Origin: Saprospiraceae bacterium
GTDB taxonomy: Bacteria; Bacteroidota; Bacteroidia; Chitinophagales; Saprospiraceae
Reading direction: 5' to 3'
NCBI GenBank assembly: GCA_029263015.1
Contig: JAJCYI010000206.1
Span: 1-34,637 of the forward strand
DNA: 34,637 nt
A model generated the notes under the pieces. That model had not been told where the DNA came from. It made no database searches and was given only the letters and a program-made list of their open reading frames with translations. Positions 1,788 to 26,820 of the stretch are shown here, piece by piece (position 1 is the stretch's first letter; each line of letters begins with the position of its first letter). Both the position numbers and the translations under genes were made by a program.

Positions 1788-1938
1788 GGAGTCAGGTTTT
1801 TTGAGGAGTCAGGGGTCAGGGGTCAGATTTGAAGAACCGAAGGTCAGTATTCAAGAAAAGAGCAAGAAAAGCCATTGTTTAACTGCTACTCCCTGACTCC
1901 TAAAACCTGATCCCTGACTCCTCATCACTGATCCCTGA
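1788..1938. repeat. Period-7 repeat clusters in opposite orientation
   Basis: This fills most of the 177-bp gap between the DUF1501 and DUF1800 genes. At 1805-1826 the units are GGAGTCA, GGGGTCA, GGGGTCA, with a further GGAGTCAGG at 1788-1796. At 1887-1935 seven consecutive heptamers keep phase without a break: TACTCCC, TGACTCC, TAAAACC, TGATCCC, TGACTCC, TCATCAC, TGATCCC. The second cluster is roughly the reverse complement of the first, so a transcript could fold into a long imperfect hairpin. A single related copy (GAGGAGTCAGGATC) occurs near 19396. Confidence 0.75.
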
Positions 1939-1941
1939 AAT

Positions 1942-3627
1942 TTAACTCAGATAAAATTCGGGCATGCTCATCATGGCTGCCAATAGATCCTGGAGTTTGG
2001 ATACAATTGCGGCTTCCAGATTTGAGTTGGTTGGATCGTTGATATATTCTCCGTATTCCACCGTCCATTCAAAATCTGGAAGGCCGGGGAGGAGGATGGA
2101 TTTCAACAAATCCTTTTGCTCCAGTGTAATGGGCTGCGGGTACAATATTTTAGAAAATTCGTCAATCATATTGTTCGGATCGAATGGGTCGTCCACCGAT
2201 GCGGCAAATTTCAGCACATTGATCTGTGCCCTTGTATCGCCTATGGCAAAACCTTCGAAAGCCATCAAGTTGGTAAAATCCATTCGTACGGGCAGGGTAG
2301 AGGAACTGATCCAAATCCTGTAAAAAGTAGGTTCCTGGTAATAAGCTTTCCATCCTGCAACACTCGGTGGGTTGTACGGTACCATTTGCATCCTTGGCAA
2401 TGGTACTCGAATCAATTGGAACATAACTCGATAGTACCTGTCCAAATCCGATTCGTCGATTTCGACTTCAAATGTATTGAGCACCGTCATCACAAAATCG
2501 ATGGGGTTCTTTATCATTGGCCCGATACTGAGCATATCGAAAAAATGTTCACTTTGCAGCAGGGCTTCAAGGGCAGGTTTTATTTCGTAGTCGTTGTCCA
2601 GGATTATCTGCGCCATGGGTTCGATCACATCTGTTTCCACCTCCGCAGAAATGATGTAATAAACAAACCACCGATATAACTTCCGGCAAATAAACTTGGC
2701 ACATTCATCTTTTGAATAAATAATGTCGATTAAATGGGCATATTCCTGATCGTCCATATTGTCGATCAGAAGATCATCGAAACGGTGGGAGAGCTGCTTT
2801 TGGGTCTGGTTGTGCCTACCGCTGAGAAAAATGCTGCCAGCATCAACATTCTCCTGTGTAAACAATCCTATTTGACGCCACCCGGTTAGTACTTTTGCTA
2901 TCTCGACCACGTCATCTTCTGTATAATTGGTGTAATCGCCAAGGCCCACGGCAGGTCCTTTTCCAATGGTAAACAACTCCAATAATTCCCTGGCAAAATT
3001 TTCATTTGGGGATGCGGCGGTGTTCTCATTTCCATTCAGGTAAAGTAGCATGGATGGATCAATGGCGATCAGTTTGGTGAGTTCCCGATAATTTCCCAAT
3101 GCATTTTTCCGAAGTGTAGTTATGTATTTGTAAACAAAATTGGCGTCAGGAATATCTGAGGTTACATAATGGTTGTGCCAAAAAAGGGTTATTTTTTCAT
3201 GGATCGAAACACCTGCTTTTCGCCAGACTTCAATAGTCCACGCATTTAATGATTGTCGTCGATAGGCGCGGATGCTCTGGCCAAGGTCGCCAGGTTGGTA
3301 AGGTTTATTCACCCAACTTTCGCCAATTTGAACTTCAGGGTCTTCCTCAAAATTATGGTTGACTGGTTCTGCGGGAAGGGGTTGGTCGGCAAACAATTGT
3401 TGTATGGTAGCCTCCAATCCGTTGTTGGCAGCGTCCTTTATTTGTTGGTAAGTTGGACCGAACATGCTGCGCCTGAGCAAGTGTGCGGCATGTTCGTAGT
3501 CAAATGTTCCAGTGTAAGGATTGAGGCCAGAAAGCACGGTGGTCGTTGGAGCAGTTGCAGAAGAAAAAGACGCTTTGTCCGAATCTGCTTGTCCGAATAG
3601 CTTTGTCAAAGTCGTTCTTCTATCCAT
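1942..3627 (-). CDS. DUF1800 domain-containing protein
   Basis: A 561-residue protein of the DUF1800 family. Recognisable segments are HLLRRSMFGPTYQQIKDA (about 48-65), the KITLFWHNHYVTS block near 145, NENFARELLELFTIG (about 210-224), the LTGWRQ segment, and a C-terminal VAGWKAYYQEPTFYRIW followed by a helical tail ending MMSMPEFYLS. The function of the family is unknown; it is repeatedly found next to DUF1501, as here. The N-terminus (MDRRTTLTKLFG) has two arginines but no hydrophobic core, so I cannot call a signal peptide. The start is the first ATG in a long frame. It is probably transcribed first in a two-gene unit with the DUF1501 gene; the 177-bp spacer is full of heptamer repeats. 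Confidence 0.92.
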   Translation of the reverse strand: MDRRTTLTKLFGQADSDKASFSSATAPTTTVLSGLNPYTGTFDYEHAAHLLRRSMFGPTYQQIKDAANNGLEATIQQLFADQPLPAEPVNHNFEEDPEVQIGESWVNKPYQPGDLGQSIRAYRRQSLNAWTIEVWRKAGVSIHEKITLFWHNHYVTSDIPDANFVYKYITTLRKNALGNYRELTKLIAIDPSMLLYLNGNENTAASPNENFARELLELFTIGKGPAVGLGDYTNYTEDDVVEIAKVLTGWRQIGLFTQENVDAGSIFLSGRHNQTQKQLSHRFDDLLIDNMDDQEYAHLIDIIYSKDECAKFICRKLYRWFVYYIISAEVETDVIEPMAQIILDNDYEIKPALEALLQSEHFFDMLSIGPMIKNPIDFVMTVLNTFEVEIDESDLDRYYRVMFQLIRVPLPRMQMVPYNPPSVAGWKAYYQEPTFYRIWISSSTLPVRMDFTNLMAFEGFAIGDTRAQINVLKFAASVDDPFDPNNMIDEFSKILYPQPITLEQKDLLKSILLPGLPDFEWTVEYGEYINDPTNSNLEAAIVSKLQDLLAAMMSMPEFYLS

Positions 3628-3772
3628 GATAAATAAAATTTGGTTGCGAAATGTGTCTGTGAGAAAGGGTGTTTTGGAGAAAGATGGCTTTTGGACTTAG
3701 GTCGTTAATAAAAGTTTAAAACGCAAAGAAATCCATTTTTGGGAATTAAGAAATTAGCTGAAAATTAAGTTG

Positions 3773-3815
3773 TTTCCAATTTCTCAATTTCCAATTTCCA
3801 ATTTCTAATTATCAA
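3773..3815. repeat. Heptamer repeat (TTTCCAA-type) at the end of the SCP2 gene
   Basis: The units are TTTCCAA, TTTCTCAA (one base longer), TTTCCAA, TTTCCAA, TTTCTAA, TTATCAA. The array runs into the stop codon of the SCP2 gene at 3812-3814. The unit is nearly the same as that of the array at 26754-26795. The rest of the gap to the DUF1800 gene shows no gene or clear signal. Confidence 0.7.
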
Positions 3816-4162
3816 ATAAACCCGAACAATTTTGCATGTTTGACAATCTCTTCCTGATTGGAAACTTTCAGTTTGCCAGTAAGAATTGCCATGATAGGGT
3901 TCAATTCGCCTCGTAATAGTTGCATGAAATGGATTTCTTTTGCTTTTATGATGCAATTTGGTTGTTCGACCAATTGTGCGTGAATGTCCATATTATTGTT
4001 TTTCACTACCACACTGAACAGCCCTCCAGTTTCACCTTGGATGTCAAAATGAAAGTTGGTGTTCACTTCCTTGAGCCACTCAGGCTGTACCATCTGAGGA
4101 AGGGAGGAAAAGAAATCCTGGGCAGTTTCAAATTTTACCTTTGGTAGCTTGTTGAAATCCAT
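3812..4162 (-). CDS. SCP2 sterol-binding domain protein
   Basis: A 116-residue, single-domain protein matching the SCP2 (sterol carrier protein 2) fold: an N-terminal helix (KFETAQDFFSSLPQMV), then strands including FHFDIQGETGGLFSVVVKNN and CIIKAKEIHFMQLLRGELNPIMAILTGKLKVSN, and a C-terminal helix. The segment GELNPIMAILTGKLKV is the typical motif near the C-terminus. The family binds lipids or acyl-CoAs in a hydrophobic tunnel; the ligand here is unknown. There is no signal peptide, so it is probably cytoplasmic. It appears to be a single-gene unit upstream of the DUF1800/DUF1501 pair. Confidence 0.88.
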   Translation of the reverse strand: MDFNKLPKVKFETAQDFFSSLPQMVQPEWLKEVNTNFHFDIQGETGGLFSVVVKNNNMDIHAQLVEQPNCIIKAKEIHFMQLLRGELNPIMAILTGKLKVSNQEEIVKHAKLFGFI

Positions 4163-4233
4163 TCTGATTGGTTGCTGGTTTTGTATTACTATTTTTTATT
4201 CAGGTTTAGTTTCCGTTTTTTGCTAAAAGTAGT

Positions 4234-4251
4234 GCGGATCTCCAGATCCGC
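4234..4251. repeat. Short perfect hairpin GCGGATCT/AGATCCGC
   Basis: Two 8-bp arms separated by CC. It is GC-richer than its surroundings and lies 72 bp upstream of the SCP2 start, away from any gene end, so a terminator role is unlikely; it is more probably a REP-like palindrome. Confidence 0.5.
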
Positions 4252-4462
4252 TCATGGTGACACGTACGGCATATTGTAAATATGCAGGACTAACAAGAAC
4301 CATAAAAGTACATGTAATCCCATTTTTTGGTTTTTTTAATCGAAACACGCTGGTTATTTTGATTGTTATATTTTGATTATCAATTGTTTATGAAGGATCA
4401 TTTTGGCAGATCATTTGACTGTTTTTTACAATAATAACACTCCGCTCAACAGGATTAAAGTA

Positions 4463-4656
4463 AGGGGGCATTTTAGAAATCTTATGATACCCCACATCTT
4501 TTGTGTCATCATTTTCCAATTTTATAACTCGTTGACATTAAACGATTTGTAGGAGCATAGTTGGGAGTCAACTTAGAGTTGACTCCCAACTTAAACAACT
4601 GAATTTCAATAAGTTAAAAAAATGTGGGGTGTCGATAGATTTTAGAAATGCCTCCC
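4463..4656. repeat. Nested palindromic element 1 (194 bp)
   Basis: The outer arms at 4463-4497 and 4622-4656 are inverted repeats, 26 of 35 bases identical, both with the core ACCCCACAT and a GGCATTT-like end. Near the middle is a perfect 15-bp stem (4559-4573 and 4577-4591; AGTTGGGAGTCAACT with loop TAG). The right arm ends 24 bp before the fmt start codon. No reading frame or transposase is linked to it. Confidence 0.7.
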
Positions 4657-4680
4657 AACTCATCTGAACAATTAAACAAC

Positions 4681-5649
4681 ATGAGAATAATATTCATGGG
4701 CACACCGGATTTTGCCGTGCCGTCATTAGATGTTTTGATTGAAAATGGTTTTGACGTAGTTGCCGTCATCACCTCCACTGATAAAATGGGTGGACGTGGC
4801 GGCAAAAAGCTTTTGGAGTCTCCGGTAAAAAAATTCGCTAAGAGCAAAGGCATTCCTGTCCTTCAGCCACCAAAATTAAAATCACCAACTTTTCTTGAAG
4901 AATTGAGGAGTTATAAAGCAGACCTTCAAGTAGTCGTGGCCTTTCGGATGCTCCCCGAAGTTGTTTGGGCCATGCCGAAATTTGGTACGTTCAACTTGCA
5001 TGGCTCGCTGTTGCCAAAATACCGGGGCGCAGCTCCGATCAACTGGGCGGTGATCAATGGCGAAAAAGAAACAGGTGTAACTACTTTTTTTATCAAACAT
5101 GAAATCGACACTGGAGATCTTTTATTTCAAGAAAAAATACCCATCGGTGAAAATGAAACAGTCGGAGAAATTCACGACAGGATGATGCATGTCGGAGCAA
5201 AATTAGTTCTGAAAACAGTGCAAGTAATTGAGTCTGGGGATTATCAGTTACAAAAACAAGATGAGTCACAGGTGTGCAAGGCACCCAAAATTTACCACGA
5301 AACTTGCAAGATCAATTTTGACCAACCAGTCGAGAAAGTACATGATTTCATTAGGGGGTTAAGCCCATATCCAGGTGCCTGGATTTTAGTGAATGGCGTG
5401 GCTGTTTTGGAAGATGGAACGCCCTGGGAAGAGGAGGCGTGGCAAAAAATAAACGGCGATCAATTGAAAATTTTTAGATCGGTCAAAGTTGAAGGTGAAC
5501 ACAATTTTAAGACTGGTCAACTTATTACCGATGGCAAAAAAAAGTTGTTTATTGCAACGCAAAATGGTTTTGTTGAAATATTCGAATTGCAATTGAGGGG
5601 TCGAAAAAGGATGCGGGCCGTTGATTTCCTGAACGGAATGCGTTCTTGA
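4681..5649 (+). CDS. fmt: Methionyl-tRNA formyltransferase
   Basis: Transfers a formyl group from 10-formyl-tetrahydrofolate to Met-tRNA(fMet) for translation initiation, in the cytoplasm. The 322-residue protein begins MRIIFMGTPDFAVPSL, the classic N-terminus. The formyl-transferase core carries NLHGSLLPKYRGAAPINW with catalytic N105 and H107, and EIDTGD with D143, in line with the Asn-His-Asp triad of the E. coli enzyme. The C-terminal Fmt_C domain (about 205-315) includes the IRGLSPYPGAW segment. An in-frame ATG 11 codons upstream (4648) lies inside a repeat arm and would add an unconserved peptide, so 4681 is the better start. It is a single gene, convergent with fabH. Confidence 0.97.
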   Translation: MRIIFMGTPDFAVPSLDVLIENGFDVVAVITSTDKMGGRGGKKLLESPVKKFAKSKGIPVLQPPKLKSPTFLEELRSYKADLQVVVAFRMLPEVVWAMPKFGTFNLHGSLLPKYRGAAPINWAVINGEKETGVTTFFIKHEIDTGDLLFQEKIPIGENETVGEIHDRMMHVGAKLVLKTVQVIESGDYQLQKQDESQVCKAPKIYHETCKINFDQPVEKVHDFIRGLSPYPGAWILVNGVAVLEDGTPWEEEAWQKINGDQLKIFRSVKVEGEHNFKTGQLITDGKKKLFIATQNGFVEIFELQLRGRKRMRAVDFLNGMRS

Positions 5650-5691
5650 AACTAAGCCACCAAAAATGATAAGATAAATTTGTCCGACAAC

Positions 5692-6762
5692 TTACCATCG
5701 AATTAACGCAGAACCCCACGTAAATCCGCTACCAAATGCAGCTATGCAAATCAAATCCCCGTCTTTGACTTTTCCTGCTTCAACGGCTTCACTGAGGGCG
5801 ATGGGGATGGTGGCAGCAGTCGTATTTCCATATCGTTGGATGTTGTTCCACACTTGGTCGTCTCGGAGTTTCAACCTTCTTTGCACAAATTGGCTGATGC
5901 GGAGATTGGCTTGGTGAGGAATAAAAAGATCAATATTTTCAGTTGTAAGTCCCTGGTCGTCAAGGGCTTCCATGATAACTTCGGGAAATTTAGTCACGGC
6001 CGTTTTAAAGACCAGCTTTCCGTCCATATTTGGGTAAATCATACCTTCATCCAACATTTTTTGGGTCAAGAAGCGGCCTCCATATTCTATGTCTTTATCA
6101 TAACCAAAATCAATATCTTCTCCCATTTGGTTGAAATGATAACCGGAGTGGCAGCCTGGGTTGATGAAAGCGAGTTTTTCAGCATGGGTGCCGTCAGAGT
6201 GGAGTTTTGTCGTTAGAATACCTTTGCCCTCTTCTTCGGTTGGCTGAATGATTACAGCGCCAGCGCCATCACCGAAGAGCACGGAAACATTCCGACCTCT
6301 GGTGGTGAAATCAAGACCCATCGAGTGAACCTCTGCTCCGACCAACAGCACATTTTTATACATACCAGATTTTACAAACTGGTCGGCAATGGAAAGTCCA
6401 TAGATAAAACCCGAGCATTGGTTCCTGATGTCCAAAGCACCGATTTCTGTCTTGGTGATACCCAATTCACGTTGCATTAAAACGCCACAACCCGGAAAAA
6501 AATAATCGGGGCTGATGGTAGCGAAAATAATAAAATCTATGTCTTCCTTTGAAATGCCTGCACGCTCGATTGCTCGTTCTGCCGCCTTTGCGCCTAATGT
6601 TGTGGACGTTTCATGGAAAGGTTTAGCATACCGTCGTTCGACAATGCCACTACGCTCCTGAATCCACTCGTCTGAGGTATCCATGTGGCGAGTGAGATCG
6701 TGGTTGGTGACGACTGTTTCGGGGACGTAGAAACCGATTCCTGCTATTTTTGAATTGGGCAT
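5692..6762 (-). CDS. fabH: 3-oxoacyl-ACP synthase III (FabH-type ketoacyl synthase)
   Basis: Starts fatty acid synthesis by condensing an acyl-CoA with malonyl-ACP. The 356-residue protein has the thiolase-fold triad of FabH: C116 in RNQCSGFIYGL, H283 in IPHQANLRI and N313 in YGNTTAAT. The N-terminal GIGFYVPETVVTNHDL and DEWIQERSGIVERR segments are typical. It is about 25-35 residues longer than E. coli FabH, with extra sequence around 200-250 (GCHSGYHFNQMGEDIDFGY), so a FabH-like enzyme of another pathway cannot be excluded. It follows the cysteine desulfurase gene by 37 bp on the same strand and is probably cotranscribed. Confidence 0.9.
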   Translation of the reverse strand: MPNSKIAGIGFYVPETVVTNHDLTRHMDTSDEWIQERSGIVERRYAKPFHETSTTLGAKAAERAIERAGISKEDIDFIIFATISPDYFFPGCGVLMQRELGITKTEIGALDIRNQCSGFIYGLSIADQFVKSGMYKNVLLVGAEVHSMGLDFTTRGRNVSVLFGDGAGAVIIQPTEEEGKGILTTKLHSDGTHAEKLAFINPGCHSGYHFNQMGEDIDFGYDKDIEYGGRFLTQKMLDEGMIYPNMDGKLVFKTAVTKFPEVIMEALDDQGLTTENIDLFIPHQANLRISQFVQRRLKLRDDQVWNNIQRYGNTTAATIPIALSEAVEAGKVKDGDLICIAAFGSGFTWGSALIRW

Positions 6763-6799
6763 TTTTTATTGATGATTGATGAATTATAAATGCAGAATG

Positions 6800-7945
6800 T
6801 CATGCAATTACTGCTTCTTTGATTTTGACGATTTCTGCCAATTTTTCTAATACAAAATCAATTTCTCCTTTTGTTGTGAAATGAGAAAACGAAAAACGGA
6901 TGGACTTTCGTGCCGGGTCGGCCCCAATGGCGTTCAATACATGTGAACCGCCCTCCACCCCTGAACTACAGGCACTTCCCCCTGATGCAGATATTCCTGC
7001 GATGTCCAAAAGTAGCAATAGCATCTCGGATTTTTCGGAAGGGGGAAAAGAAACGTTTAGAAAAGTATAAAGGTAGCTTTCTTGGTCTCCTATGAACTGG
7101 ATGTCTTCAAATCTGGCCATCAGGTTTTCTTTAAGATAGTCCCTGAGCCTTTCCATATGTTGGCGGTACTCCTCCATGTTTTCGCATGCGAGTTCCATTG
7201 CTTTGGCCATGCCGACAATGCCATAGATGTTCTCCGTGCCCCCACGCATATTGCGTTCTTGCGAACCGCCATCCATCATTGGTTTGATCTGGGTTTCACT
7301 ATTGATGTAAATAAAGCCGCAACCTTTAGGACCATGAAATTTATGTGCACCTCCTGAAAGAAAATGGATTTTTGTTTTGGAAACATCAATGGGCAAATGG
7401 GCCATGGTCTGCACGGTGTCGGAATGATAATAGGCACCATATTTTTCGCAGAGTTGTGAAATGCGGGCCATGTCAGAAAGAGTGCCGATTTCATTGTTTG
7501 CATGCATTAGTGTGACCAGGGTTTTTACCCCTTCATTTTCTTGCAATTTTTTTTCGAGTTGTTCATAATCTGGTCGCCCCAAGTCATCTACGTCCAAGTA
7601 TTCCAGACTTGCACCCATCTTTTCAGCAGCAGCCAGTGAATTGCTGACACATGGATGTTCCAGTTTTGTGGTGATGAATCGTTGTACCCCTAAATCCCGC
7701 ACAGCGCCTTTAATGGCCATGTTACTACTCTCTGTCCCACCCGATGTAAAGAAAATTTCACCAATAGAAGCGTTCAGGTAACCTGCTATCTTCTTACGTG
7801 ATTCTTCAATCTTGGCCCTGGCTTTTCTGCCATGGGCATGAATGGAAGATGGGTTGCCATGAAGGTCGCGCATGACGCCCGTCATTGCTTCAATGACTTC
7901 TTCCCTGATTGGAGTGGAGGCGGCGTTGTCAAGATAAATCCTCAT
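6800..7945 (-). CDS. Cysteine desulfurase (NifS/IscS family)
   Basis: A PLP-dependent enzyme that removes sulfur from cysteine as a persulfide for Fe-S clusters, thiolated tRNA or other acceptors. The 381-residue protein has the class V aminotransferase pattern: SGGTESSNMAIKG (68-80), H97, HANNEIG (148-154), D176 in YYHSDTVQT, the PLP-binding K202 in SGGAHKFHGPKG, and the catalytic C326 in ASGGSACSSG. The short SACSSG loop fits group I (NifS/IscS). No iscU, sufE or other Fe-S assembly gene adjoins, so the acceptor is unknown. Two small inverted repeats lie upstream, and fabH follows downstream. Confidence 0.94.
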   Translation of the reverse strand: MRIYLDNAASTPIREEVIEAMTGVMRDLHGNPSSIHAHGRKARAKIEESRKKIAGYLNASIGEIFFTSGGTESSNMAIKGAVRDLGVQRFITTKLEHPCVSNSLAAAEKMGASLEYLDVDDLGRPDYEQLEKKLQENEGVKTLVTLMHANNEIGTLSDMARISQLCEKYGAYYHSDTVQTMAHLPIDVSKTKIHFLSGGAHKFHGPKGCGFIYINSETQIKPMMDGGSQERNMRGGTENIYGIVGMAKAMELACENMEEYRQHMERLRDYLKENLMARFEDIQFIGDQESYLYTFLNVSFPPSEKSEMLLLLLDIAGISASGGSACSSGVEGGSHVLNAIGADPARKSIRFSFSHFTTKGEIDFVLEKLAEIVKIKEAVIA

Positions 7946-7980
7946 ATTTTGTGTTCGTGATTTTGATTGTCTGCCAAGTT

Positions 7981-8007
7981 AAGTATGTATTAGTTTTAGA
8001 CATACTT
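7981..8007. repeat. Inverted repeat AAGTATGT/ACATACTT
   Basis: Two 8-bp arms with an 11-base spacer, 35 bp upstream of the cysteine desulfurase start. A T run follows on the plus strand, but no plus-strand gene precedes it. It could be an operator for the desulfurase-fabH unit or simply a hairpin. Confidence 0.35.
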
Positions 8008-8015
8008 TTTCAAAA

Positions 8016-8040
8016 GTGACACCATTCTAAAAGGTGTCAC
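8016..8040 (-). terminator. Hairpin after the methyltransferase gene, possible terminator
   Basis: GTGACACC and GGTGTCAC pair around a 9-base loop. On the minus strand TTTTG follows, 88 bp beyond the stop codon of the methyltransferase gene. The arm core TGACACC also occurs in the palindrome at 9971-10003, so this may be a repeat rather than, or as well as, a terminator. Confidence 0.45.
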
Positions 8041-8127
8041 ATTTTATGCTTTGAAAGTTTCATGTAAAAGTATGGTTTGCGAAAATAAATATTCCTTTTT
8101 TGGATAAATTATAGTCTGAAAACACAG

Positions 8128-8955
8128 CTATTTCACAGTTTCAACATACAGCATTGGCACTGTCATTTTTAATTCACCGTTCCATTTGGCCTGCTCATTC
8201 AGTTTTTTTTCCAAATGTGCGAATACTTGTTTTTCATCTTTTTCTGGTAAAATGGAACGCCATCCCGGTAAAAATCCAATGATAATTAAAAGGTGGTTCA
8301 ACAAAGCGCTGCCATCCACAAAGCGCATGTGGAAACGGTCTTTCACCATTTTCAAAATAGAAAATCCAGCGTTTTCTATCAACTCTCTCACCGATTCGTC
8401 TGTGCCCCGGTGTTGTTCTTGTAGATGCAGTTTCGGCAGCAGTTCCGTCATCCCAAGTTCTTTCAAAGTGGATTCAAATGAACTATAAAATTCCCTGAAA
8501 TGGCCTTTCAAATTGGTAGTCAGACAAAGTTTGCCCATACGTTTTAATACCCTGTGGCATTCATGTAAAGTAGCCTCTGGGTTGTCAAAATTATTGACTC
8601 CAAGATTTGAAACGATCAGGTTGAACTGATCATTTCCAAATGGCATCTTAGCTCCGTCACCAAATATCAAGTCAACATTTTGCAGGCCCATTTGATCGGC
8701 TTTCCATTGCGCCCTTGCCAAGCCTGATGTCCAGCTATCCAACCCAGTCAACTTTGAACTATTGCCCAATCGGTGAGCCAGTTCGAGAATCGGAAAACCT
8801 GCCCCACAGCCTACATCGAGTACTTCCATGCCCTCGTGCATCGGTACATTGTCGAGCAGCAATTTGCCGAAAGGCGAAGACCACAAAGAAAGTTGGTCAA
8901 ACATGGAAGGGGTCTCCTCGTTTTCCAGGGGGTATTTTCGGTTTAGGTAATCCAT
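8128..8955 (-). CDS. Class I SAM-dependent methyltransferase
   Basis: With the start at 8955 (MDYLNRKYPLENEE) the protein has 275 residues. The Rossmann-fold methyltransferase core shows motif I VLDVGCGAGFPILELA (about 44-59), an acidic end of the second strand in LTGLDSW, DLIFGDGAKMPFGNDQFNLIVSNLGVNN, and HECHRVLKRMGKLCLTTN, typical of the Methyltransf_11/UbiE-like group. The substrate cannot be read from the sequence. A longer frame could start at 9009 but would add a hydrophobic leader (LRNHKIVLIVTYC) not expected in this soluble family; 8955 is preferred. It appears to be a single-gene unit. Confidence 0.88.
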   Translation of the reverse strand: MDYLNRKYPLENEETPSMFDQLSLWSSPFGKLLLDNVPMHEGMEVLDVGCGAGFPILELAHRLGNSSKLTGLDSWTSGLARAQWKADQMGLQNVDLIFGDGAKMPFGNDQFNLIVSNLGVNNFDNPEATLHECHRVLKRMGKLCLTTNLKGHFREFYSSFESTLKELGMTELLPKLHLQEQHRGTDESVRELIENAGFSILKMVKDRFHMRFVDGSALLNHLLIIIGFLPGWRSILPEKDEKQVFAHLEKKLNEQAKWNGELKMTVPMLYVETVK

Positions 8956-9071
8956 GTATTGACAATATGTAACGATGAGCACTATTTTGTGATTTCGTAG
9001 AAATGACAAAATAACCTTAAAGAGACTTGGTACATTGGAGTAGCAAATTAGGATTCGGTCTATTTCAATTT

Positions 9072-9226
9072 AGAGCATGTCTAGTTTTTCTTTTTCCTGA
9101 CAACCAACGCTTTAGGCGTTGACTTCGAATTAACTCGGTCATTTACCCCGATAAATTTTCTCATTAATTCTATGCCATCATCCTAAATCATTGATTCTCA
9201 GTTCAAATAAAAACTAGACATGCTCT
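9072..9226. repeat. Nested palindromic element 2 (155 bp)
   Basis: Perfect 18-bp inverted arms at 9072-9089 (AGAGCATGTCTAGTTTTT) and 9209-9226, flanked on both sides by loosely similar TTCA-T-rich sequence. Inside lies a CAACGC/GCGTTG hairpin with a 5-base loop (9105-9121). The layout is the same as in elements 1, 3 and 4 although the sequence differs. Confidence 0.75.
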
Positions 9227-19459: not shown

Positions 19460-19499
19460 TAAGTAACAAAGCCTAATTATTTGGGTATTTTGAGAATAT
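19460..19499. repeat. Exact 40-bp copy of the left arm of element 3
   Basis: Identical to 16158-16197, 3.3 kb away and in the same orientation. It lies between ccmB and ccmC, 46 bp before ccmC. The matching inverted arm and the inner hairpin are missing, so it is a solo half of the element. Confidence 0.9.
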
Positions 19500-19500
19500 C

Positions 19501-19522
19501 TAAATTTCTAATTTCTAATATC
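19501..19522. repeat. Short heptamer repeat before ccmC
   Basis: TAAATTTC, TAATTTC, TAATATC: the same unit type as the arrays at 3773-3815 and 26754-26795, directly following the 40-bp repeat copy and ending 22 bp before the ccmC ATG. Confidence 0.5.
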
Positions 19523-19544
19523 TATCGCTCATTTATTTTTGAAA

Positions 19545-20609
19545 ATGAAAAACGCTTGGTGGAAAATTATTGGGGTTCTTTTGATTATCTATAGCTTAAT
19601 CGTTGGATTGTTGACGCCGCTTCGAACAGGGATCAGCGATGCTTCCCCGACCAGTTTTAAGACAGGTGAAACGATTGAGATTAACGTACAAGGGTATAAT
19701 TCTTTTTATACCAAATCCTCTAACGAATTACGGGCCTGGTTAAAGATGGACAGTGTAAATGCACTGACTGCCAATAATATAGAGGTATTAGATGACCGAA
19801 ACCTGAGCTTGACTTTTATCCTGCCAGCCTATCTTCCTACTTCCCATAAAGTACAAGATTTTACATTGATTGTGGATAGTCCTAAAGATGGGGCGGCAAT
19901 CCTGCCTGGGGGCATTTTCGTGACACAGGATAGTATTGATGTAGCGTCTGGGGATTCATTGTGGGTGAACGCAGAAATCACAAACTTGCACGAAAAAGAA
20001 ACCATTAATTTCCCTTACCGCAATATTTTATACGAGACCATCCGAAACCTATATTACCATGTTCCTCTTTGGTTTGCCATGTTTATCCTATTCATTACGG
20101 CCATGGTGAAGAGCATATTTTACCTGAGAAGTTTCAATCCTGTCCATGATCAAAAAGCGGCGGCCTTTACTAGTGTTGGCATTTTGTACGGCATATTAGG
20201 CCTGGTCACTGGAGCAATTTGGGCAAAAAACACTTGGGGTGCATACTGGAGCTGGGATGTCAAGCAGAATATGACAGCGGTAGGGATGTTAATTTATGCT
20301 GCCTATTTTGTACTTCGGGCTTCCTTTGAAGATCCTGAAAAAAGGGCGAGGATCAGTGCAGTTTATAACATATTTGCATTTGCCACACTGATCCCGTTGC
20401 TTTACGTTGTGCCAAAATTAACCGACAGCCTTCATCCTGGTGCTGGAGGTAACATCGCATTTGGTTCACAGGATTTGGACAATACCATGCGCATGGTGTT
20501 CTATCCTGCTATTATCGGGTGGGCACTGTTTGGTACATGGTTGGCGACATTAGTGTTCAAGATCACTAGCCTCAAAGAAAGGTGGCTCGACCAACAGGAT
20601 GGGTTCTGA
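19545..20609 (+). CDS. ccmC: CcmC/CcsA-type cytochrome c assembly protein with an extra extracytoplasmic domain
   Basis: Handles heme and loads it onto CcmE in cytochrome c maturation. The 354-residue protein has TM1 at about 7-25, then some 120 residues of predicted extracytoplasmic sequence (TGETIEINVQGYNSFYT ... DSLWVNAEITNLHEKETINF), then the canonical core: a His in IRNLYYHVPLWFAMFIL, the tryptophan-rich heme motif WGAYWSWDVKQNM, a second loop His in LTDSLHPGAGGN, and the final TM pair. Typical CcmC is about 220-250 residues, so the inserted beta-rich domain is extra. It probably forms one unit with ccmB, ccmD and the glutamate dehydrogenase gene. The ATG at 19545 is chosen over an upstream TTG. 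Confidence 0.9.
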   Translation: MKNAWWKIIGVLLIIYSLIVGLLTPLRTGISDASPTSFKTGETIEINVQGYNSFYTKSSNELRAWLKMDSVNALTANNIEVLDDRNLSLTFILPAYLPTSHKVQDFTLIVDSPKDGAAILPGGIFVTQDSIDVASGDSLWVNAEITNLHEKETINFPYRNILYETIRNLYYHVPLWFAMFILFITAMVKSIFYLRSFNPVHDQKAAAFTSVGILYGILGLVTGAIWAKNTWGAYWSWDVKQNMTAVGMLIYAAYFVLRASFEDPEKRARISAVYNIFAFATLIPLLYVVPKLTDSLHPGAGGNIAFGSQDLDNTMRMVFYPAIIGWALFGTWLATLVFKITSLKERWLDQQDGF

Positions 20610-20833
20610 TTTGGGTGGGAAAAATAGGTGGATAATTTCAGCCAAACCTTAATGTTCCCACAAGCCTACACAGCATCAATGTTTGCCGTTATATCACAAT
20701 ACCAATTACACAGATAAACCAATAAACCAATCATCAAAAAATAAAAACCTTTGCACAAACTTTCTTGTCTGATAAGAAAAATTGTTAGACTTTTGCGCGA
20801 TCTTATTGGACAGGAACAGCTAATGACAATACC

Positions 20834-21055
20834 ATGTTAAAAGCGACTAAAAAAGCCTTTACAACTTTCACATTATTACTTCTTCCCTTCACGCTTTTAT
20901 TGGCACAAGAAGAAACTGACTTCATGCGCAGCATGGGCAAAATGTATGTGGTAGTGGCCGTGATCGTGGCAATTTTTATAGGCATCGTTATTTACCTGGT
21001 TACCCTGGACAGGAAAATTTCCAAATTGGAAGACCAAATTATTGAAAATGACTAA
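20834..21055 (+). CDS. ccmD: CcmD family small membrane protein
   Basis: A 73-residue protein that stabilises the CcmABC-CcmE complex in system I cytochrome c maturation. The N-terminus resembles a signal peptide (KKAFTTFTLLLLPFTLLLAQ) as in Bacteroidota CcmD-like proteins; the conserved part is MGKMYVVVAVIVAIFIGIVIYLVTLDRKISKLE, one membrane helix followed by a short charged helix. Its place directly after ccmC supports the call. Its stop overlaps the start of the glutamate dehydrogenase gene by 8 bases (ATGACTAA). A 224-bp gap separates it from ccmC, so it may also have its own promoter; a sequence TAGACTTTTGCG lies about 50 bp upstream. Confidence 0.88.
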   Translation: MLKATKKAFTTFTLLLLPFTLLLAQEETDFMRSMGKMYVVVAVIVAIFIGIVIYLVTLDRKISKLEDQIIEND

Positions 21056-22490
21056 AGCAAAACAGCCAATCAACTTTTATCAAAGTGTAGACAATTTCTT
21101 TGAAAAAGCTGCTCCACACACTTGCCTCGACAGAGGTATTCTCGATCAAATAAAATCTTGCAGTGCTATTTATGCGATCAATTTTCCGGTTAAAGTAACG
21201 GACCCAAAAACGGGTAAAAGGGAAGTGAAAGTGATCGAAGCCTACCGCGTGCAGCATAGTCACCACCGGTTACCTACAAAAGGTGGAATTCGTTATAGCA
21301 ATCATGTGACCCAAAGCGAGGTGATGGCTTTGGCAACCTTGATGTCCTATAAATGTGCGATCGTGCATGTGCCTTTTGGCGGAGCAAAAGGGGGCGTGAA
21401 AATCAATCCAAAAGATTATTCAGAAGAAGACCTGGAAAAGATTACCCGCCGATATACTTATGAATTGGTAAGAAGAGATTTCATTGGCCCATCTCTCGAT
21501 GTTCCTGCACCTGATTATGGAACAGGTTCCCGTGAAATGGCATGGATTTATGACACGTACCGCACGCTCCGTGAAAACGAAATTGATGCAGCAGGATGTG
21601 TTACTGGAAAACCCGTAAAAATTCATGGAATCCGTGGAAGAACGGAAGCTACCGGCCGCGGCGTTTATTATGGTTTGCGGGAAGCGTGCGGGAAAGAGGA
21701 AGACATGAAGGCAATTGGACTTTCAAAAGGCATGCAAGGCAAGAGGATAGTCATACAAGGGTTTGGAAATGTGGGTACTTTTTCTGGTTCCATTTCACAG
21801 GATGAGGGCGATGCAAAGATCATTGCAGTTGGAGAGGCGGATGGATTTATTTTGAATGAAGATGGATTGGACATTGCCAAATTAATAGAAGTGAAGGCTG
21901 AAACAGGCTCCATCATGAACTATCAAGATGCCAAGAAATTTGGAAAAGAAGACCGTAACAAAGTATTGGAACTGGACTGTGACGTTTTGGTGCCGGCGGC
22001 TCTCGAAAATCAGATATCCGTTAACAATGCCGACCGGATAAAAGCCAAGATCATCGCAGAAGCGGCAAACGGCCCCATCACCTCTGCCGCTGAAGAAATG
22101 TTGTTGGAGAGAGGGGTTTTGATTTTGCCAGACCTTTATCTGAATGCCGGTGGTGTGACTGTTTCCTATTTCGAATGGTTGAAAAACCTTTCCCACATGC
22201 GGTTTGGAAGAATGGATAAACGTTACCGCCAACAGGGAAGGGAAAATACTTTGAACCTGATTGGATCTATGGTCGGAAGGAAAGTTGACAATGATATTTT
22301 TGCAAAATTTGCAAAGGGGGCGGACGAAATTGACCTGGTTCGCTCCGGTCTTGAGGATTCCATGATTACTGCATATAATGTTACCCGTGAAATCGCAAAG
22401 GAAAAAAAGATTGATCTTCGGACAGCGGCCTTTGTTAATGCAGTCGAATTGATAGGGGCCGATTACATGGCAATGGGTATTTTCCCATAA
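21048..22490 (+). CDS. Glutamate dehydrogenase, animal-mitochondrial-like subfamily
   Basis: Reversible oxidative deamination of glutamate to 2-oxoglutarate, cytoplasmic. The 480-residue protein has the family motifs K78 in PTKGGIRYS, K102 in MSYKCAIVHVPFGG, catalytic K114 in GGAKGG, D156 in DVPAPD, the nucleotide-binding GFGNVGTFSG, and LNAGGVTVSYFEWLKNLSHMRFGRM. Its wording is closer to animal mitochondrial GDH, from memory, than to the common ~420-450-residue bacterial enzymes: ITRRYTYEL, CVTGKP, GGIRGRTEATGRGV-like segments, DLRTAAFVNAVE. The region matching the animal antenna is present but about 10 residues shorter. The ATG at 21048 overlaps the ccmD stop, implying translational coupling. 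A terminator follows. Confidence 0.93.
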   Translation: MTKAKQPINFYQSVDNFFEKAAPHTCLDRGILDQIKSCSAIYAINFPVKVTDPKTGKREVKVIEAYRVQHSHHRLPTKGGIRYSNHVTQSEVMALATLMSYKCAIVHVPFGGAKGGVKINPKDYSEEDLEKITRRYTYELVRRDFIGPSLDVPAPDYGTGSREMAWIYDTYRTLRENEIDAAGCVTGKPVKIHGIRGRTEATGRGVYYGLREACGKEEDMKAIGLSKGMQGKRIVIQGFGNVGTFSGSISQDEGDAKIIAVGEADGFILNEDGLDIAKLIEVKAETGSIMNYQDAKKFGKEDRNKVLELDCDVLVPAALENQISVNNADRIKAKIIAEAANGPITSAAEEMLLERGVLILPDLYLNAGGVTVSYFEWLKNLSHMRFGRMDKRYRQQGRENTLNLIGSMVGRKVDNDIFAKFAKGADEIDLVRSGLEDSMITAYNVTREIAKEKKIDLRTAAFVNAVELIGADYMAMGIFP

Positions 22491-22904
22491 TAGTTGTAGA
22501 TCAATTTCTACACGGTTCTTAAATGCAGGATAGATGATATATCTATCCTGCATTTTTTTTGCTGTTTGTAGGTCGGGCTGTTTGTTAATGAAATTTAAAC
22601 CAACCCTGCTGCATTAGGGCAATATTGTAGCAAGCCGTTCCTATATAAATTTTAATTACCCGTTAAACCATTTCAAAATGCCGAAGTCAATACTCCATAA
22701 ATAATGAAAATCTTCTTATGGAGCATGTTTACTTGACAACCTTTTCTTGTACACAATTAATTCGTTGTCCTTTCTAAAACAATTTTTAAAACAAATAGCT
22801 GGAATTATTAGATGGGATACTATAATGGAATTCCTGCCGGAAATGGCAAGGGGATCCAAGAGATTTCCATTTCTTAAAACGGTTATTGGAAAATTCTTAA
22901 AAAC
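22491..22904. other. Gene-free region between the glutamate dehydrogenase and lipoprotein genes
   Basis: 414 bp. Apart from the terminator at 22521-22560 it holds one inverted repeat, CTCCATAA (22693-22700) with TTATGGAG (22716-22723). No convincing TAnnTTTG promoter for the lipoprotein gene was found; a TATAAT-like word near 22820 is not expected to work in this phylum. No gene was seen. Confidence 0.45.
22521..22560 (+). terminator. Intrinsic terminator of the ccm-glutamate dehydrogenase unit
   Basis: AAATGCAGGATAGAT (22521-22535) pairs perfectly with 22541-22555 around a 5-base loop, followed by further T to 22560. It lies 30 bp after the glutamate dehydrogenase stop codon. Confidence 0.92.
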
Positions 22905-23735
22905 ATGAAAACCATTAATTGGCTTATCACTGCAACCCTTTTTCTGGGACTATTTTTCACTTCTTGCAACAAAGACCAAGACGATAATTTGACCAACGAA
23001 CAAGTAACTGAACAGATGATTGTATCATCGGAAGACCAGGCAACGGCCGAAGATTTTTATCAGGATGTAGAAGACCAAGTGGATGAGGCCATCGAATCGA
23101 GGGGTGGGGGAGGAGACTGCCCAACCGTTACTGCTGATCCTGATTGGGATACATTTCCGCGTACCGTGACCATTGACTTTGGGGATAGTTGTGAAGGTCC
23201 CAACGGCCGTGTCAGGAAAGGGCAAATTGTAGTCACTGTAACTGATAATCTTATCAATGAGGGGGCTGTGAGAACTGCCACTTTTGTCGATTTTTTTATT
23301 GATGATGCACAGATCGAAGGAACCCGTACCCTGACCAATTTGGGATATGACGACAATGGCAACATCACACTTTCCAGGGTTGTTTCTGGTGGCCAGATCA
23401 CTTTCCCAAATGGAGAGGGCGCTTCTTGGGAATCAGATGTTATCATGACTCAAATAGCAGGTGGCAACACTCCTTTGTTTTTCCTCGACAATGTTTTTGA
23501 AATTACAGGAACTGCCAGTGGAGTCAATAGGCAGGGCAAGGCTTATACCATTAATATTTTGGAACCTCTCATCAAGAAGAAAGCTTGTCCTTGGTTTGTG
23601 GAAGGAGTGATTTCCATTACGAGTGAAAATGTTGAAGTTACCCTAAATTACGGCAATGGCGAATGCGACAGAAAAGCTATTCTGACTTTGCCTAATGGTA
23701 CGGAACATGAGATTCTGATGAAGAAATGGTGGTAA
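22905..23735 (+). CDS. Lipoprotein of unknown function
   Basis: A 276-residue protein with a type II signal peptide: MKTINWLITATLFLGLFFTSC, lipidated Cys at position 21. The residues after it (NKDQDDN) are acidic and resemble the export signal that sends Bacteroidota lipoproteins to the cell surface. An acidic linker (about 25-65) and RGGGGDC lead into a region of repeated beta strands (PRTVTIDFGDSC, GQIVVTVTDN, ITFPNGEGASWESDV), with four further Cys residues after the first. No named domain was recognised; the phrases LTLPNGTEHEILM and GRVRKGQIVVT suggest a beta-sandwich. It is monocistronic, convergent with glnS. Confidence 0.78.
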   Translation: MKTINWLITATLFLGLFFTSCNKDQDDNLTNEQVTEQMIVSSEDQATAEDFYQDVEDQVDEAIESRGGGGDCPTVTADPDWDTFPRTVTIDFGDSCEGPNGRVRKGQIVVTVTDNLINEGAVRTATFVDFFIDDAQIEGTRTLTNLGYDDNGNITLSRVVSGGQITFPNGEGASWESDVIMTQIAGGNTPLFFLDNVFEITGTASGVNRQGKAYTINILEPLIKKKACPWFVEGVISITSENVEVTLNYGNGECDRKAILTLPNGTEHEILMKKWW

Positions 23736-23799
23736 GAATGGAGAATGGAGTCCCGAACATGTTTCAGGACTCCATTTTCAATTCTCAATTCCAATTCCC
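23736..23799. repeat. Heptamer repeats around the lipoprotein-glnS junction
   Basis: GAATGGA, GAATGGA at 23736-23749, then after a hairpin CAATTCT, CAATTCC, AATTCCC at 23779-23799. The 7-bp period is again kept while the unit differs from other loci. The stretch fills the 65 bp between the convergent lipoprotein and glnS genes. Confidence 0.55.
23744..23780 (+). terminator. Probable terminator of the lipoprotein gene
   Basis: AATGGAGTCC (23744-23753) pairs with GGACTCCATT (23767-23776) around a 13-base loop, followed by TTC. The T run is short, so strength is uncertain. On the other strand it could also serve glnS, but no T run follows there. Confidence 0.5.
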
Positions 23800-23800
23800 T

Positions 23801-25480
23801 TCACCCTTTCTTTTTCGCTTTGGCCCACGCATCCCGCAGGGTAACGGCTCTGTTGAATGCAAGGTGGCTTTCCGTTGAGTCTGTGTCGGGCGTGAAATAC
23901 CCCAGTCGGAAGAACTGGAAGCTGTCACCGGGCTTTGCATCTTTCAAGCTCGGCTCCAGCATTGCATTCTTGACCACGGTCAGAGAATTTGGGTTGAGTA
24001 GTTCTTCCAGATTCCTTTCATCGCTTGAGGGGTCTTCTACCAGGAAAAGGCGGTCGAACAACTTGACTTCTGCTGGGATCGCATGTTCAACTGATACCCA
24101 ATGTAAGGTTGCTTTTGGTTTTAGGCCAGAAGTATCACTACCGCTTTTTGATGTAGGGAAATAAGTGCAGTGGAGTTCGGTTAGTTCTCCATTTTCGTCT
24201 TTCACAAAATTATCAACTTGGATGATATAGCCGCTTTTAAGTCTTCCTAAACGACCCGGGCCTAAGCGGAAAAATTTCTTTGGCGGGTCTTCCATGAAAT
24301 CTCCTTTTTCAATCCAAAGTTCACGGGTGAAAGGGATTTTACGAGTGCCAGCATCAGGGTCTTCAGGATTGTTGACCGTGTCCATCCATTCTGTCTTTCC
24401 TTCTGGATAATTAGTGATGACCACTTTTAACGGGTCAAGGACTCCCATAACCCTGGTGGCAGTTTTATTCAAATCCTCCCGAACACAGTATTCCAGTAAG
24501 CCAAGGTCAACAACATTATCCCGTTTGCCTATTCCGATCCGTTTTGAAAAATTTCGGATCGAATTCGCGGTGAACCCACGCCGTCGCATTGCAGCAATGG
24601 TAGGCATGCGCGGGTCATCCCAACCGCTGACATGTCCATCCGTGACAAGTTTCAGTAGCTTTCGTTTTGAGACCACCGTATAAGAAAAATTGCGGCGGGC
24701 AAACTCATATTGTTTGGAAGGGAAAATGTCCAGTTTATCTATGCACCAATCGTATAGCTCCCGATGCGGGGCGAATTCAAGTGTACATATCGAGTGGGTA
24801 ATTTTTTCAATGCTGTCACTTTGGCCATGTGCCATGTCGTACATTGGGTAAATGCACCAATCGTCTCCCGTGCGGTGATGATGCGCGAACTTGATTCTGT
24901 AAAGTAATGGGTCCCGCATAATCATATTTGGAGAAGCCATATCAATCTTCGCCCTCAACACCTTGCTCCCAGCTGGAAATTCACCTTTTCGCATCCGTTC
25001 AAAAAGGTCAAGGTTTTCCTCAATGCTACGATCCCGGTAAGGACTGTTTTTTCCCGCTTCTGTTGTAGTGCCTTTTAATGCCGCAATCTCCTCAGCAGAA
25101 CTATCGTCCACATAAGCCAATCCTTTTTTGATCAATTCAATGGCGAGGTCAAATAATTTACCGAAATAATCAGATGAATAAAGAATATTGTCCGGTTCGA
25201 AACCCATCCACCTGACATCACTGAGGATGCTTTCTACATATTCCGTTTCTTCTGTTACAGGATTGGTGTCGTCGAAGCGAAGGTTGCAATTACCGTTGTA
25301 TTTTTTTGCCAAGCCAAAATTCAGACAAACAGTAGTGGCGTGGCCCAAATGCAGATACCCGTTCGGTTCGGGAGGGAAACGGGTGAGAACCTTGCCATCG
25401 TTCTTGTTTTCGGCAAGATCTTTTTCTATTATTTCTTCAATAAAATTAAGTGATTCTTTTTCTTTTGTATTTTCACTCAT
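23801..25480 (-). CDS. glnS: Glutaminyl-tRNA synthetase
   Basis: Charges tRNA(Gln) with glutamine. The 559-residue protein has the class I signatures PPEPNGYLHLGHATTV (36-51, HIGH = HLGH at 44-47) and VVSKRKL (about residue 270, KMSKS equivalent), with NLRFDDTNP, the GluRS/GlnRS-type RFDDTNP motif, near 84. The C-terminal anticodon-binding beta barrels end in HLAFNRAVTLRDAWAKAKKKG. Length matches bacterial GlnRS (about 550). Having GlnRS means Gln-tRNA need not be made through the amidotransferase route. It is monocistronic. The sequence CAGACTTTTGCG about 90 bp upstream resembles the one before ccmD. Confidence 0.97.
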   Translation of the reverse strand: MSENTKEKESLNFIEEIIEKDLAENKNDGKVLTRFPPEPNGYLHLGHATTVCLNFGLAKKYNGNCNLRFDDTNPVTEETEYVESILSDVRWMGFEPDNILYSSDYFGKLFDLAIELIKKGLAYVDDSSAEEIAALKGTTTEAGKNSPYRDRSIEENLDLFERMRKGEFPAGSKVLRAKIDMASPNMIMRDPLLYRIKFAHHHRTGDDWCIYPMYDMAHGQSDSIEKITHSICTLEFAPHRELYDWCIDKLDIFPSKQYEFARRNFSYTVVSKRKLLKLVTDGHVSGWDDPRMPTIAAMRRRGFTANSIRNFSKRIGIGKRDNVVDLGLLEYCVREDLNKTATRVMGVLDPLKVVITNYPEGKTEWMDTVNNPEDPDAGTRKIPFTRELWIEKGDFMEDPPKKFFRLGPGRLGRLKSGYIIQVDNFVKDENGELTELHCTYFPTSKSGSDTSGLKPKATLHWVSVEHAIPAEVKLFDRLFLVEDPSSDERNLEELLNPNSLTVVKNAMLEPSLKDAKPGDSFQFFRLGYFTPDTDSTESHLAFNRAVTLRDAWAKAKKKG

Positions 25481-25634
25481 CTGATAAATCTTTTTGAGAA
25501 GTTTACTTTTATTGATTGCTCTTGAAGACGGTTATTGGAGCAACCTTTGATATTAGAAAAAAGTGTCGCAAAAGTCTGTTTTTTTTAGCTCACGTCAAAA
25601 CAGCTTTTTGTGACTTTCAACAACCAGTCAATCC

Positions 25635-26534
25635 ATGAATAAAATGTTGTCGTTCTTGGCCTCTTTACCCATTTCACTTAAAGGGAAAAGCTTCGTTAGA
25701 ATCGGTGGGAAACTTTTCAGGAAAGCCCAATCCGATAATAATGAGACTTTAACAACAAATCTTGGAATCAAGGATAGTTACAAAATGGTCATGCCCGTTT
25801 CCAATCCCTTATTTGCTTTTGGAAACCCCATGTCTTACCAAGGGGAGCGGGGAGTTTTGTACCTCAGTAAATTCCTTGCACCAGAAGTAGATGCTGTTAT
25901 GGATATAGGTGCCAATTGGGGATATTTCACCTATTTTCTTAAAGCCAATCTTAATGAAAGTATTCCTATCTATTTTTTTGAACCTAACGAAAAACTCTTT
26001 TTGGGAATTCAGCAAAATGTGCGGAATAACAATTTGAAAAATACCCACGGTGTGCAGAAAGGGATTTCCAGTTTTTCTGGAACGGCTAAGTTTTATGTCA
26101 ACCTAACCAACGATTTGAGTTCCAGCTTAGATGGTTCATTTTTGCACGAAGGCGAACAAGTAGTAGAGCACAGTATCGAAGTTGTCAGTTTTGATGATTT
26201 TATTTCAGAAAATGATATTGCCCAAAAATGGTTGGTAAAAGTTGACATCGAAAATGCCGAGCCTGAGTTTATCAAAGGTGCTGCTAACAAAATGGGGCAC
26301 ATCGATTACCTTATTATAGAGTTTTTGGAAAAGGCCAGGAAGGGCAAATTGGCCGACCAACTGACCGATAGGTTTGGTTTCCATGCGTATTACATCAACG
26401 ACTTTAATTTGGAATATATGCCAAAAGAAGACGGGCGTTACACCCCTCCAGAGTATAATTTTTTATTCTGTCGGCTCACTCCTGAGCAATTGTCAACTAA
26501 ATTGGAAGACTCCCCTTTTACGGTAGTGAAATAA
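25635..26534 (+). CDS. FkbM family methyltransferase
   Basis: A 299-residue SAM-dependent methyltransferase. The Rossmann core starts at VMDIGANWGYFTYFL (88-102), followed by IYFFEPNEKLFLGIQQNV (strand 2 with the acidic ribose-binding residue E116), and the FkbM hallmark LVKVDIENAEPEFIKGA near 205, then LIIEFLE. FkbM-type enzymes methylate sugars or polyketide and lipid hydroxyls; no sugar or polyketide genes adjoin, so the substrate is unknown. An N-terminal segment of about 60 residues precedes the fold (SLKGKSFVRIGGKLFRKAQS), with no signal peptide. It is a single gene, divergent from glnS and convergent with argS. Confidence 0.88.
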   Translation: MNKMLSFLASLPISLKGKSFVRIGGKLFRKAQSDNNETLTTNLGIKDSYKMVMPVSNPLFAFGNPMSYQGERGVLYLSKFLAPEVDAVMDIGANWGYFTYFLKANLNESIPIYFFEPNEKLFLGIQQNVRNNNLKNTHGVQKGISSFSGTAKFYVNLTNDLSSSLDGSFLHEGEQVVEHSIEVVSFDDFISENDIAQKWLVKVDIENAEPEFIKGAANKMGHIDYLIIEFLEKARKGKLADQLTDRFGFHAYYINDFNLEYMPKEDGRYTPPEYNFLFCRLTPEQLSTKLEDSPFTVVK

Positions 26535-26753
26535 GATATTAGACTATAGATGAACTCAATTATGCTACTGGGCATTAGACAATTAGACGATAGACATTAG
26601 ACGCCATAAAATCCATAAGTCATTTATTTTTATTAATTTATACGTTTGAAATAGTCTAATGTCTAAAAACCTATCGTCTAATGTCTAATAGTATAAATCT
26701 CAATTAATATAATACCGTAAATAGTTGATCATCAATTACTTATTCCTTATATT

Positions 26754-26795
26754 TTTCTAATTTCTAATTTCTAATTTCTAATTTCTAATTTCTAA
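26754..26795. repeat. Tandem heptamer array, six TTTCTAA units
   Basis: Six perfect, uninterrupted TTTCTAA copies, ending in TTTCC. It is the purest of the period-7 arrays in the window. Confidence 0.92.
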
Positions 26796-26799
26796 TTTC

Positions 26800-26820
26800 C
26801 CTGCCTTGCCGGCAGGCAGG
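26800..26820. repeat. GC-rich imperfect palindrome, second copy
   Basis: CCTGCC (26800-26805) and GGCAGG (26815-26820) enclose the palindromic core GCCGGC. A near copy of the palindrome at 16209-16230. It abuts the TTTCTAA array and lies 11 bp from the argS stop codon, so on the minus strand it could also help end argS transcription. Confidence 0.7.

Follow-up and report, generated by a model that had tools for sequence, protein, structure and literature searches.

Heptanucleotide tandem arrays with differing units at shared sites in a Saprospiraceae bacterium and its relatives

The genome of a Saprospiraceae bacterium (assembly GCA_029263015.1) carries tandem arrays of short units beside its genes, as first noticed in a stretch of 34,637 nucleotides (contig JAJCYI010000206.1, positions 1 to 34,637, here called the window). 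Comparison of the window with further parts of this focal genome and with related genomes shows that a step of 7 bp dominates in the focal genome and that relatives carry arrays with other units at the same sites. With odds slightly better than even (about 0.53), these arrays are long-lived slippage loci at tolerant sites, at which the unit drifts and the array persists, with paired arms perhaps kept alike by template switching. Slippage would add or remove entire units of 7 and also of 8 to 10 nucleotides, in keeping with mostly unit-sized indels, and arrays would settle at insertion-tolerant places, namely, the intergenic edges of genes and the loops or linkers of proteins, where they are found. 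Repeated gain and loss may spread a mutated unit through an array, changing the word and leaving the array in place. Facing arms may be recopied from each other as reverse complements via template switching in a hairpin, so that both arms would change together; the arms do match. Selection may keep arrays scarce in divergent promoter gaps, as their distribution suggests, and may let hairpin pairs settle at gene ends that need a hairpin, with a putative role in termination.

Seven-letter step in the focal genome and in its genus

The window is contig 206 in a genome of 245 contigs and 6.95 Mb. Two further samples of this genome were analyzed, sample A (800 kb, contigs picked for TTTCTAA arrays or hits) and sample B (277 kb, picked by contig number only), together about 1.1 of the 6.95 Mb; the comparison set consists of stretches from same-genus relatives and from the outgroups G014, of the same order as the focal genome, and G016. 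Genes were called with a purpose-made small hexamer-based caller, so that start codons are approximate, and arrays were detected as lag-runs (self-identity at a fixed lag), with one order-2 shuffle as the control. The closest matches of the arginyl-tRNA synthetase (ArgRS) of the window in a genome scan came from a Bacteroidota metagenome-assembled genome (MAG; 75% identity) and from Saprospiraceae MAGs (59 to 61%).

The initial annotation had listed six repeat ranges in the window and described their period as strictly seven. Lag-7 identity in these ranges and in 1788-1830 is 0.54 to 1.00, compared to means of 0.25 to 0.42 in self-shuffles; the observed value was reached by 0 of 4000 shuffles in six of the stretches and by 16 of 4000 for 26574-26602, in a test that is not blind because the seven stretches were picked by a reader. 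A blind lag-run scan of the window detected four lag-7 arrays against 0.05 expected, one array at lag 8, and none at lags 3 to 6 and 9 to 13. The perfect array reported from 26754 onward is confirmed (Table 1). Strictness holds in part: the period is mostly seven, but an 8-bp unit occurs in both 3773-3815 and 26574-26602. At 1887-1938, identity at lag 21 (0.81) exceeds that at lag 7 (0.60).

Surveyed against a shuffle across lags, as the initial annotation had proposed, the sampled genome displays the predicted peak at lag 7 over many unit types, with further peaks at 14 and 21. Sample A holds 82 arrays at lag 7, 17 at lag 8, 8 at lag 6, 7 at lag 3, 3 at lag 9, and 0 to 3 at each remaining lag between 1 and 13, together with 49, 32, and 13 at lags 14, 21, and 28. 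Plain chance was rejected as the source of the arrays, since one order-2 shuffle yields 0 to 2 per lag (none at lag 7, one at lag 8). In sample B, the counts for lags 6, 7, 8, and 9 are 1, 17, 2, and 2. Sample A and the window together hold 85 lag-7 arrays, of which 80 fall in the intergenic 138 of 835 kb. Periods of 6, 8, and 9 are therefore not as common as 7 in the focal genome (8, 17, and 3 versus 82), but two relatives have at least as many intergenic arrays of period 8 as of period 7: arrays at lags 7/8/9 number 9/10/5 in G003 (40 kb) and 4/8/0 in G008 (231 kb). A step of 7 prevails in the focal genome; the genus as a whole has no fixed 7-nucleotide register, and a period of 10 also occurs in it.

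Differing units at orthologous sites and within proteins

Both flanks of nine genes were read in up to nine same-genus relatives. Six of these genes were chosen for arrays in the focal genome, and three, encoding ArgRS, GlnRS, and a KAS III-like protein, came from the window, with the ArgRS and GlnRS flanks carrying arrays too. Relatives have periodic inverted pairs in 13 of the 58 flanks where the focal genome has one, versus 2 of 73 elsewhere (p=5.5e-4), one focal pair, at the 5' flank of L086_14341, being a doubtful call. By eye, none of the 13 pairs uses the unit of the focal genome, with ATGAGAA at the GlnRS gene of G002 close to the focal TTGAGAA. The gap between the DUF1501 and DUF1800 genes has GGAGTCA arms in the focal genome, GGATTGAA-type 8-bp units in G008 (as an inverted pair) and G007, and GAGTGAGG in G001. 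The gap before the gene of an iron-sulfur (Fer2_3) protein has GGTTTTT in the focal genome and an 8-bp pair in G002; G004, G006, and G007 all have GGTTGATAAG there, a 10-bp unit. Arrays also lie near the same end of the ArgRS gene in G003 (periods 8 and 9) and G005 (period 7). Several relatives have some units in common, a sign of inheritance alongside change. Differing, internally homogeneous units at orthologous sites suggest that the word turns over in a persisting array.

Twelve lag-7 arrays (5 and 7 in the two samples) are not intergenic, and ten of them lie inside open reading frames: three in a nonribosomal peptide synthetase/polyketide synthase (NRPS/PKS), three in two amidohydrolases, and one each in a porin, a sortilin/BNR protein, a histidine kinase, and a small unknown protein. 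Two of the NRPS/PKS arrays stand together before one domain and one stands further on. This NRPS/PKS frame encodes 3,970 amino acids (L118 4916-16828), and some arrays directly precede ketosynthase and condensation domains, with the palindrome of about 20 bp described below at the latter. One amidohydrolase gene has two loops with in-frame heptad arrays, whose units are AAACTCA and CAATCAA in the focal genome. G001 (AAACTCA) and G002 (GCAGTCC) have an array in the first loop only, G006 has CAGTCCG plus a TCCGCAA type, and G007 has CAATCCG plus GCAGTTG; no array occurs in these loops in G003, G005, or G008 or in the outgroups G014 and G016. Each insertion is the repeat itself, between aligned protein sequence, and has no hairpin partner. 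The amidohydrolase loops appear to be the clearest case of a site that keeps the 7-nucleotide step as its word changes without a hairpin partner.

The units had been described as unrelated and as arising by one mechanism rather than by descent. Neither description fits the larger sample, in which 46 of 47 distinct 7-bp units are one substitution from another unit; 42 units are listed among its 118 period-7 arrays. Links of one substitution number 80, versus 26 to 38 in five random sets, and with the unit used for picking contigs left out, a unit is shared in 3.2% of intergenic array pairs versus 0.24% of random intergenic heptamers (13-fold). The units form a recurring mutational network, and this network, the alike paired arms, and the arrays at orthologous sites with altered units fit descent plus homogenization. 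Local clustering of units along contigs was also tried and rejected, as the same unit recurs in 0.19 of 16 within-gap pairs versus 0.04 to 0.06 elsewhere, with no clustering beyond an array's own gap.

Gain and loss of whole units can be followed in two alignable dispersed elements (4 and 13 copies). Four of the five clear gaps in their heptad arms are 7 bp (L087 versus L088 and L064; L074; L287) or 21 bp (L064), and gaps beyond these five are either one base long or located where the ends of copies have diverged. These unit-wise indels between homologous copies support the slippage that had been proposed as one generator, with one exception discussed below.

Inverted arms, polarity and rival origins

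In 13.7% of 597 gaps, one end is matched by the reverse complement of the other (score of at least 16), compared to 1.1% when the ends come from different gaps and 0.7% when they are compared in direct orientation; among the relatives, the two sides match at this score within one species in 27 of 131 flanks, and the left side of one species matches the right side of another at the same site in 17 of 1106, all these inverted-match counts taking in ordinary hairpins too. Among the arrays, 63 of 157 have an inverted partner in their own gap (score of at least 14), versus 7% when tested in other array-bearing gaps. Judged from these sequences, paired arms are probably copied from each other as reverse complements.

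The arrays are also oriented. The 157 intergenic arrays of period 7 or 8 lie at a median distance of 13 bp from a gene end, and for the 99 that stand no more than 25 bp from a gene, the strand that reads outward from it is 21.6% G and 3.6% C. More G than C, against more C than G, is found there in a ratio of 87:7, in the same direction at stops (47:6) and at starts (40:1), and the bias weakens to 37:17 beyond 25 bp. Near-gene arrays give 12:2 in sample B, 42:1 in same-genus relatives without 8 duplicates (28:0 in sampled stretches plus 14:1 at extra ortholog loci), and 9:2 at loci of other Bacteroidota. Two arrays of G014 far from genes are both of opposite polarity, and a mixed set, mostly from other phyla, gives 2:3. 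Array-free gaps have an outward G skew that is mild at starts (0.28 falling to 0.08) and slight at stops (0.11 to about 0), so that background skew is insufficient for the ratio at stops. A purine-outward rule (108 of 157 arrays) was superseded by the sharper rule of G and not C. G-quadruplex capacity (at least four G tracts of at least three) is present in only 1 of 157 arrays and the orientation holds regardless, which rejects G-quadruplex formation as the reason for polarity in the focal genome.

Paired gaps (score of at least 14) make up 37.6% of convergent, 13.6 to 19.6% of tandem, and 4.5% of divergent gaps (divergent versus the rest, p=2e-5). Such a preference for gene 3' ends would suit putative bidirectional terminators or insulators, whose C-poor 5' arm and U/C-bearing 3' arm would form a hairpin on either strand, slippage merely supplying the sequence. 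Canonical terminators are indeed scarcer beside arrays (6/71 versus 50/204 in tandem and 3/13 versus 29/49 in convergent gaps; p values of 0.003 and 0.03), and G004 has an ordinary short-loop hairpin followed by a T run in the GlnRS-stop gap, where the window has a heptad pair (23735-23799). Plain hairpins share the outward-G polarity too, less strongly (120:55 against 64:7). Yet unpaired near-gene arrays keep the polarity (52:6), the median loop is 24 nucleotides in array pairs versus 8 in plain hairpins, and ten lag-7 arrays lie inside open reading frames. We regard such terminators as a possible but doubtful explanation.

Telomere-like end healing, with a polymerase adding C-poor units of 7 to 8 nucleotides outward at both ends of a double-strand break before head-to-head joining, would also yield outward G at gene starts and stops alike, inverted arms that share a gap, and C-poor words. 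G007 even has a (GGGGTTTT)n array, the word of which is that of a ciliate telomere repeat. It is 261 bp long (L141 19163-19423), with the G strand outward by gene calls. Arms that often flank a spacer rather than meet, and in-frame coding arrays without a partner, speak against end healing, which we consider very improbable. Equally far-fetched in our view is a version by template-guided end extension (telomerase-like logic, e.g., a reverse transcriptase or an end-joining polymerase), which would write C-poor units of 7 to 10 nucleotides outward from broken chromosome ends beside genes, one template per event; end joining would leave inverted pairs with matched units, and templates would change between species. 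Binding sites of one protein with a 7-bp register would be in line with the restricted word set and orientation, but the 47 distinct units, the different units at one site in relatives, the periods of 8 to 10, and the arrays within proteins make them a most unlikely origin.

The arrays might instead be terminal arms of dispersed hairpin elements resembling miniature inverted-repeat transposable elements (MITEs), one family per unit type. The range 26562-26694 is such an element, with 13 genome copies, its own included, that are roughly 100 bp or longer and 75 to 100% identical, and with arms and spacer dispersed together; the arrays listed at first include one pair within this dispersed element. 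TAAAATG-type arms of L064, L074, L087, and L088 likewise belong to a CAGGGCTGTTAAG-bounded dispersed element. However, with arrays masked and gaps of 60 to 400 bp compared, sharing of dispersed sequence is rarer among gaps with arrays than among those without (19/104 versus 136/380; 5/35 for gaps with paired arrays and 14/69 for other array gaps), and the amidohydrolase insertions are made of repeat alone. A MITE-like origin holds for a minority of arrays and, as the general case, is contradicted by the masked-gap comparison; we consider it improbable.

Several dispersed sequences were observed in passing. The copies of the CAGGGCTGTTAAG-bounded element (L064 3500-3720, L074 6471-6826, L087 7726-7952, and L088 13400-13708) end in CAGGGCTGTTAAG with heptad inner arms; by eye, short direct repeats flank three of the four, and GGGGTCA-type sequence surrounds two. 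Dispersed sequences of about 40 to 240 bp occupy 221 of 605 sampled gaps, many of them palindrome-like and matching in both orientations (e.g., L112:11706-12021 and L078:7754-8618). A palindrome of about 20 bp (CCTGCCTGCCGGCAGGCAGG type) has 23 sites in the sample, several belonging to one longer dispersed element. By eye, seven of these sites adjoin or interrupt heptad-like sequence, as an insertion would: the one in the window (Table 1) and L072 7269, L072 14064, L084 5463, L063 12024, L113 19772, and L118 12734.

Several points weigh against long-lived slippage loci. Outward-G polarity is not predicted by slippage and is left without explanation by it. In sample B, only 10 of 17 lag-7 arrays are intergenic and 7 lie within called genes. 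The period at one site varies among species (7, 8, 10), so that the step is not simply inherited and independent origins are possible. One arm gap among element copies (L286) is 15 bp, which is no multiple of the unit. Permutation of unit order in paired arms leaves 6 of 45 pairs passing at 5%, in a test biased by arms trimmed on the real alignment. The terminator detector is unspecific, being positive in 45% of divergent array-free gaps; the terminator shortage beside arrays is therefore weak, and exclusion of canonical terminators by arrays was dropped.

Table 1 Repeat features of the window; the strand is the one bearing G
Feature	Position	Strand
Arm bearing G (units GGAGTCA/GGGGTCA) at the 5' end of the DUF1501 gene	1788..1830	+
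Arm paired with 1788-1830 in inverted orientation (TGACTCC/TGATCCC on +), at the 3' end of the DUF1800 gene	1887..1938	-
Array of TTTCCAA/TTTCTCAA/TTTCTAA with both 7- and 8-bp units, at the 3' end of the SCP2-like gene	3773..3815	-
TTTCTAA array upstream of the cytochrome c assembly gene	19503..19524	-
Left arm, GAATGGA x2, at the stop of gene 22905-23735	23735..23750	+
Right arm (GGACTCCATTTTCAATTCTCAATTCC...) before the 3' end of the gene termed GlnRS (tRNA-synt_1c, Glu/Gln class)	23767..23799	-
Dispersed hairpin element with TTAGAC heptad-type arms	26562..26694	+
Perfect array of 6.6 TTTCTAA copies at the 3' end of the ArgRS gene	26754..26799	-
Palindrome CCTGCCTTGCCGGCAGGCAGG adjoining the TTTCTAA array; one of 23 sites in the sample	26800..26820	.

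Relation to known repeats and meaning for the genus

The abundance of heptads, the idea of slippage, inverted pairs, and orientation are already published, each for other bacteria. The STRR (short tandemly repeated repetitive) sequences of filamentous cyanobacteria are heptanucleotide tandem repeats, as are the present arrays. Three Calothrix heptanucleotides are cited in PMC4692102. Heptads were described as the commonest class of long simple sequence repeats (LSSRs) in most genomes studied, with slippage at a 7-nucleotide polymerase contact proposed (Mrazek 2007, via PMC4679880 and PMC4692102). Like these, the arrays consist of tandem 7-bp units above chance, with seven dominant in the focal genome and copy number changing by whole units (4 of 5 gaps). 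Unlike LSSR heptads as described in those two papers, they show many units in one genome, changed units at orthologous sites, and matching inverted arms.

GGGAATC and GGGGA(T/C)T heptads of Xanthomonas and Nostoc lie near genes with the G-rich strand being the noncoding one upstream and the coding one downstream, i.e., outward (Rehm 2015, PMC4692102); those of Xanthomonas form inverted pairs, and positions are mostly kept between two species (PMC4692102). The arrays described here share the outward G strand near genes (in the focal genome and its relatives) and the inverted pairs. They differ from the account in PMC4692102, which follows one G-rich unit type per genome and focuses on G-quadruplexes. 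TAACTGA repeats of Beggiatoaceae, Cyanobacteria, and some Bacteroidetes are intergenic and often adjoin start codons (MacGregor 2015, PMC4679880), and other heptads are mentioned there in gaps of two Bacteroidetes. TAACTGA is absent from the 42 listed period-7 units of the focal genome sample. Unlike that single unit, for which PMC4679880 suggests horizontal transfer, the units of the focal genome vary and appear to drift. Template switching creates and mends hairpin stems by reverse-complement copying (Monttinen and Loytynoja 2022, PMC8794818); its abstract and early introduction make no mention of arms made of tandem repeats in bacterial gaps, such as those here. A literature search, judged by titles and the beginnings of abstracts, found no description of the many-unit form with site-wise change in this lineage.

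The genus amounts to a natural experiment, with the same sites in up to ten genomes and with differing units, periods (7, 8, 10), and matched inverted arms, some of the sites lying in coding loops. Differing units and periods at the same sites make the step length separable from the word, and the focal genome takes G-quadruplex formation away as the cause of the polarity.

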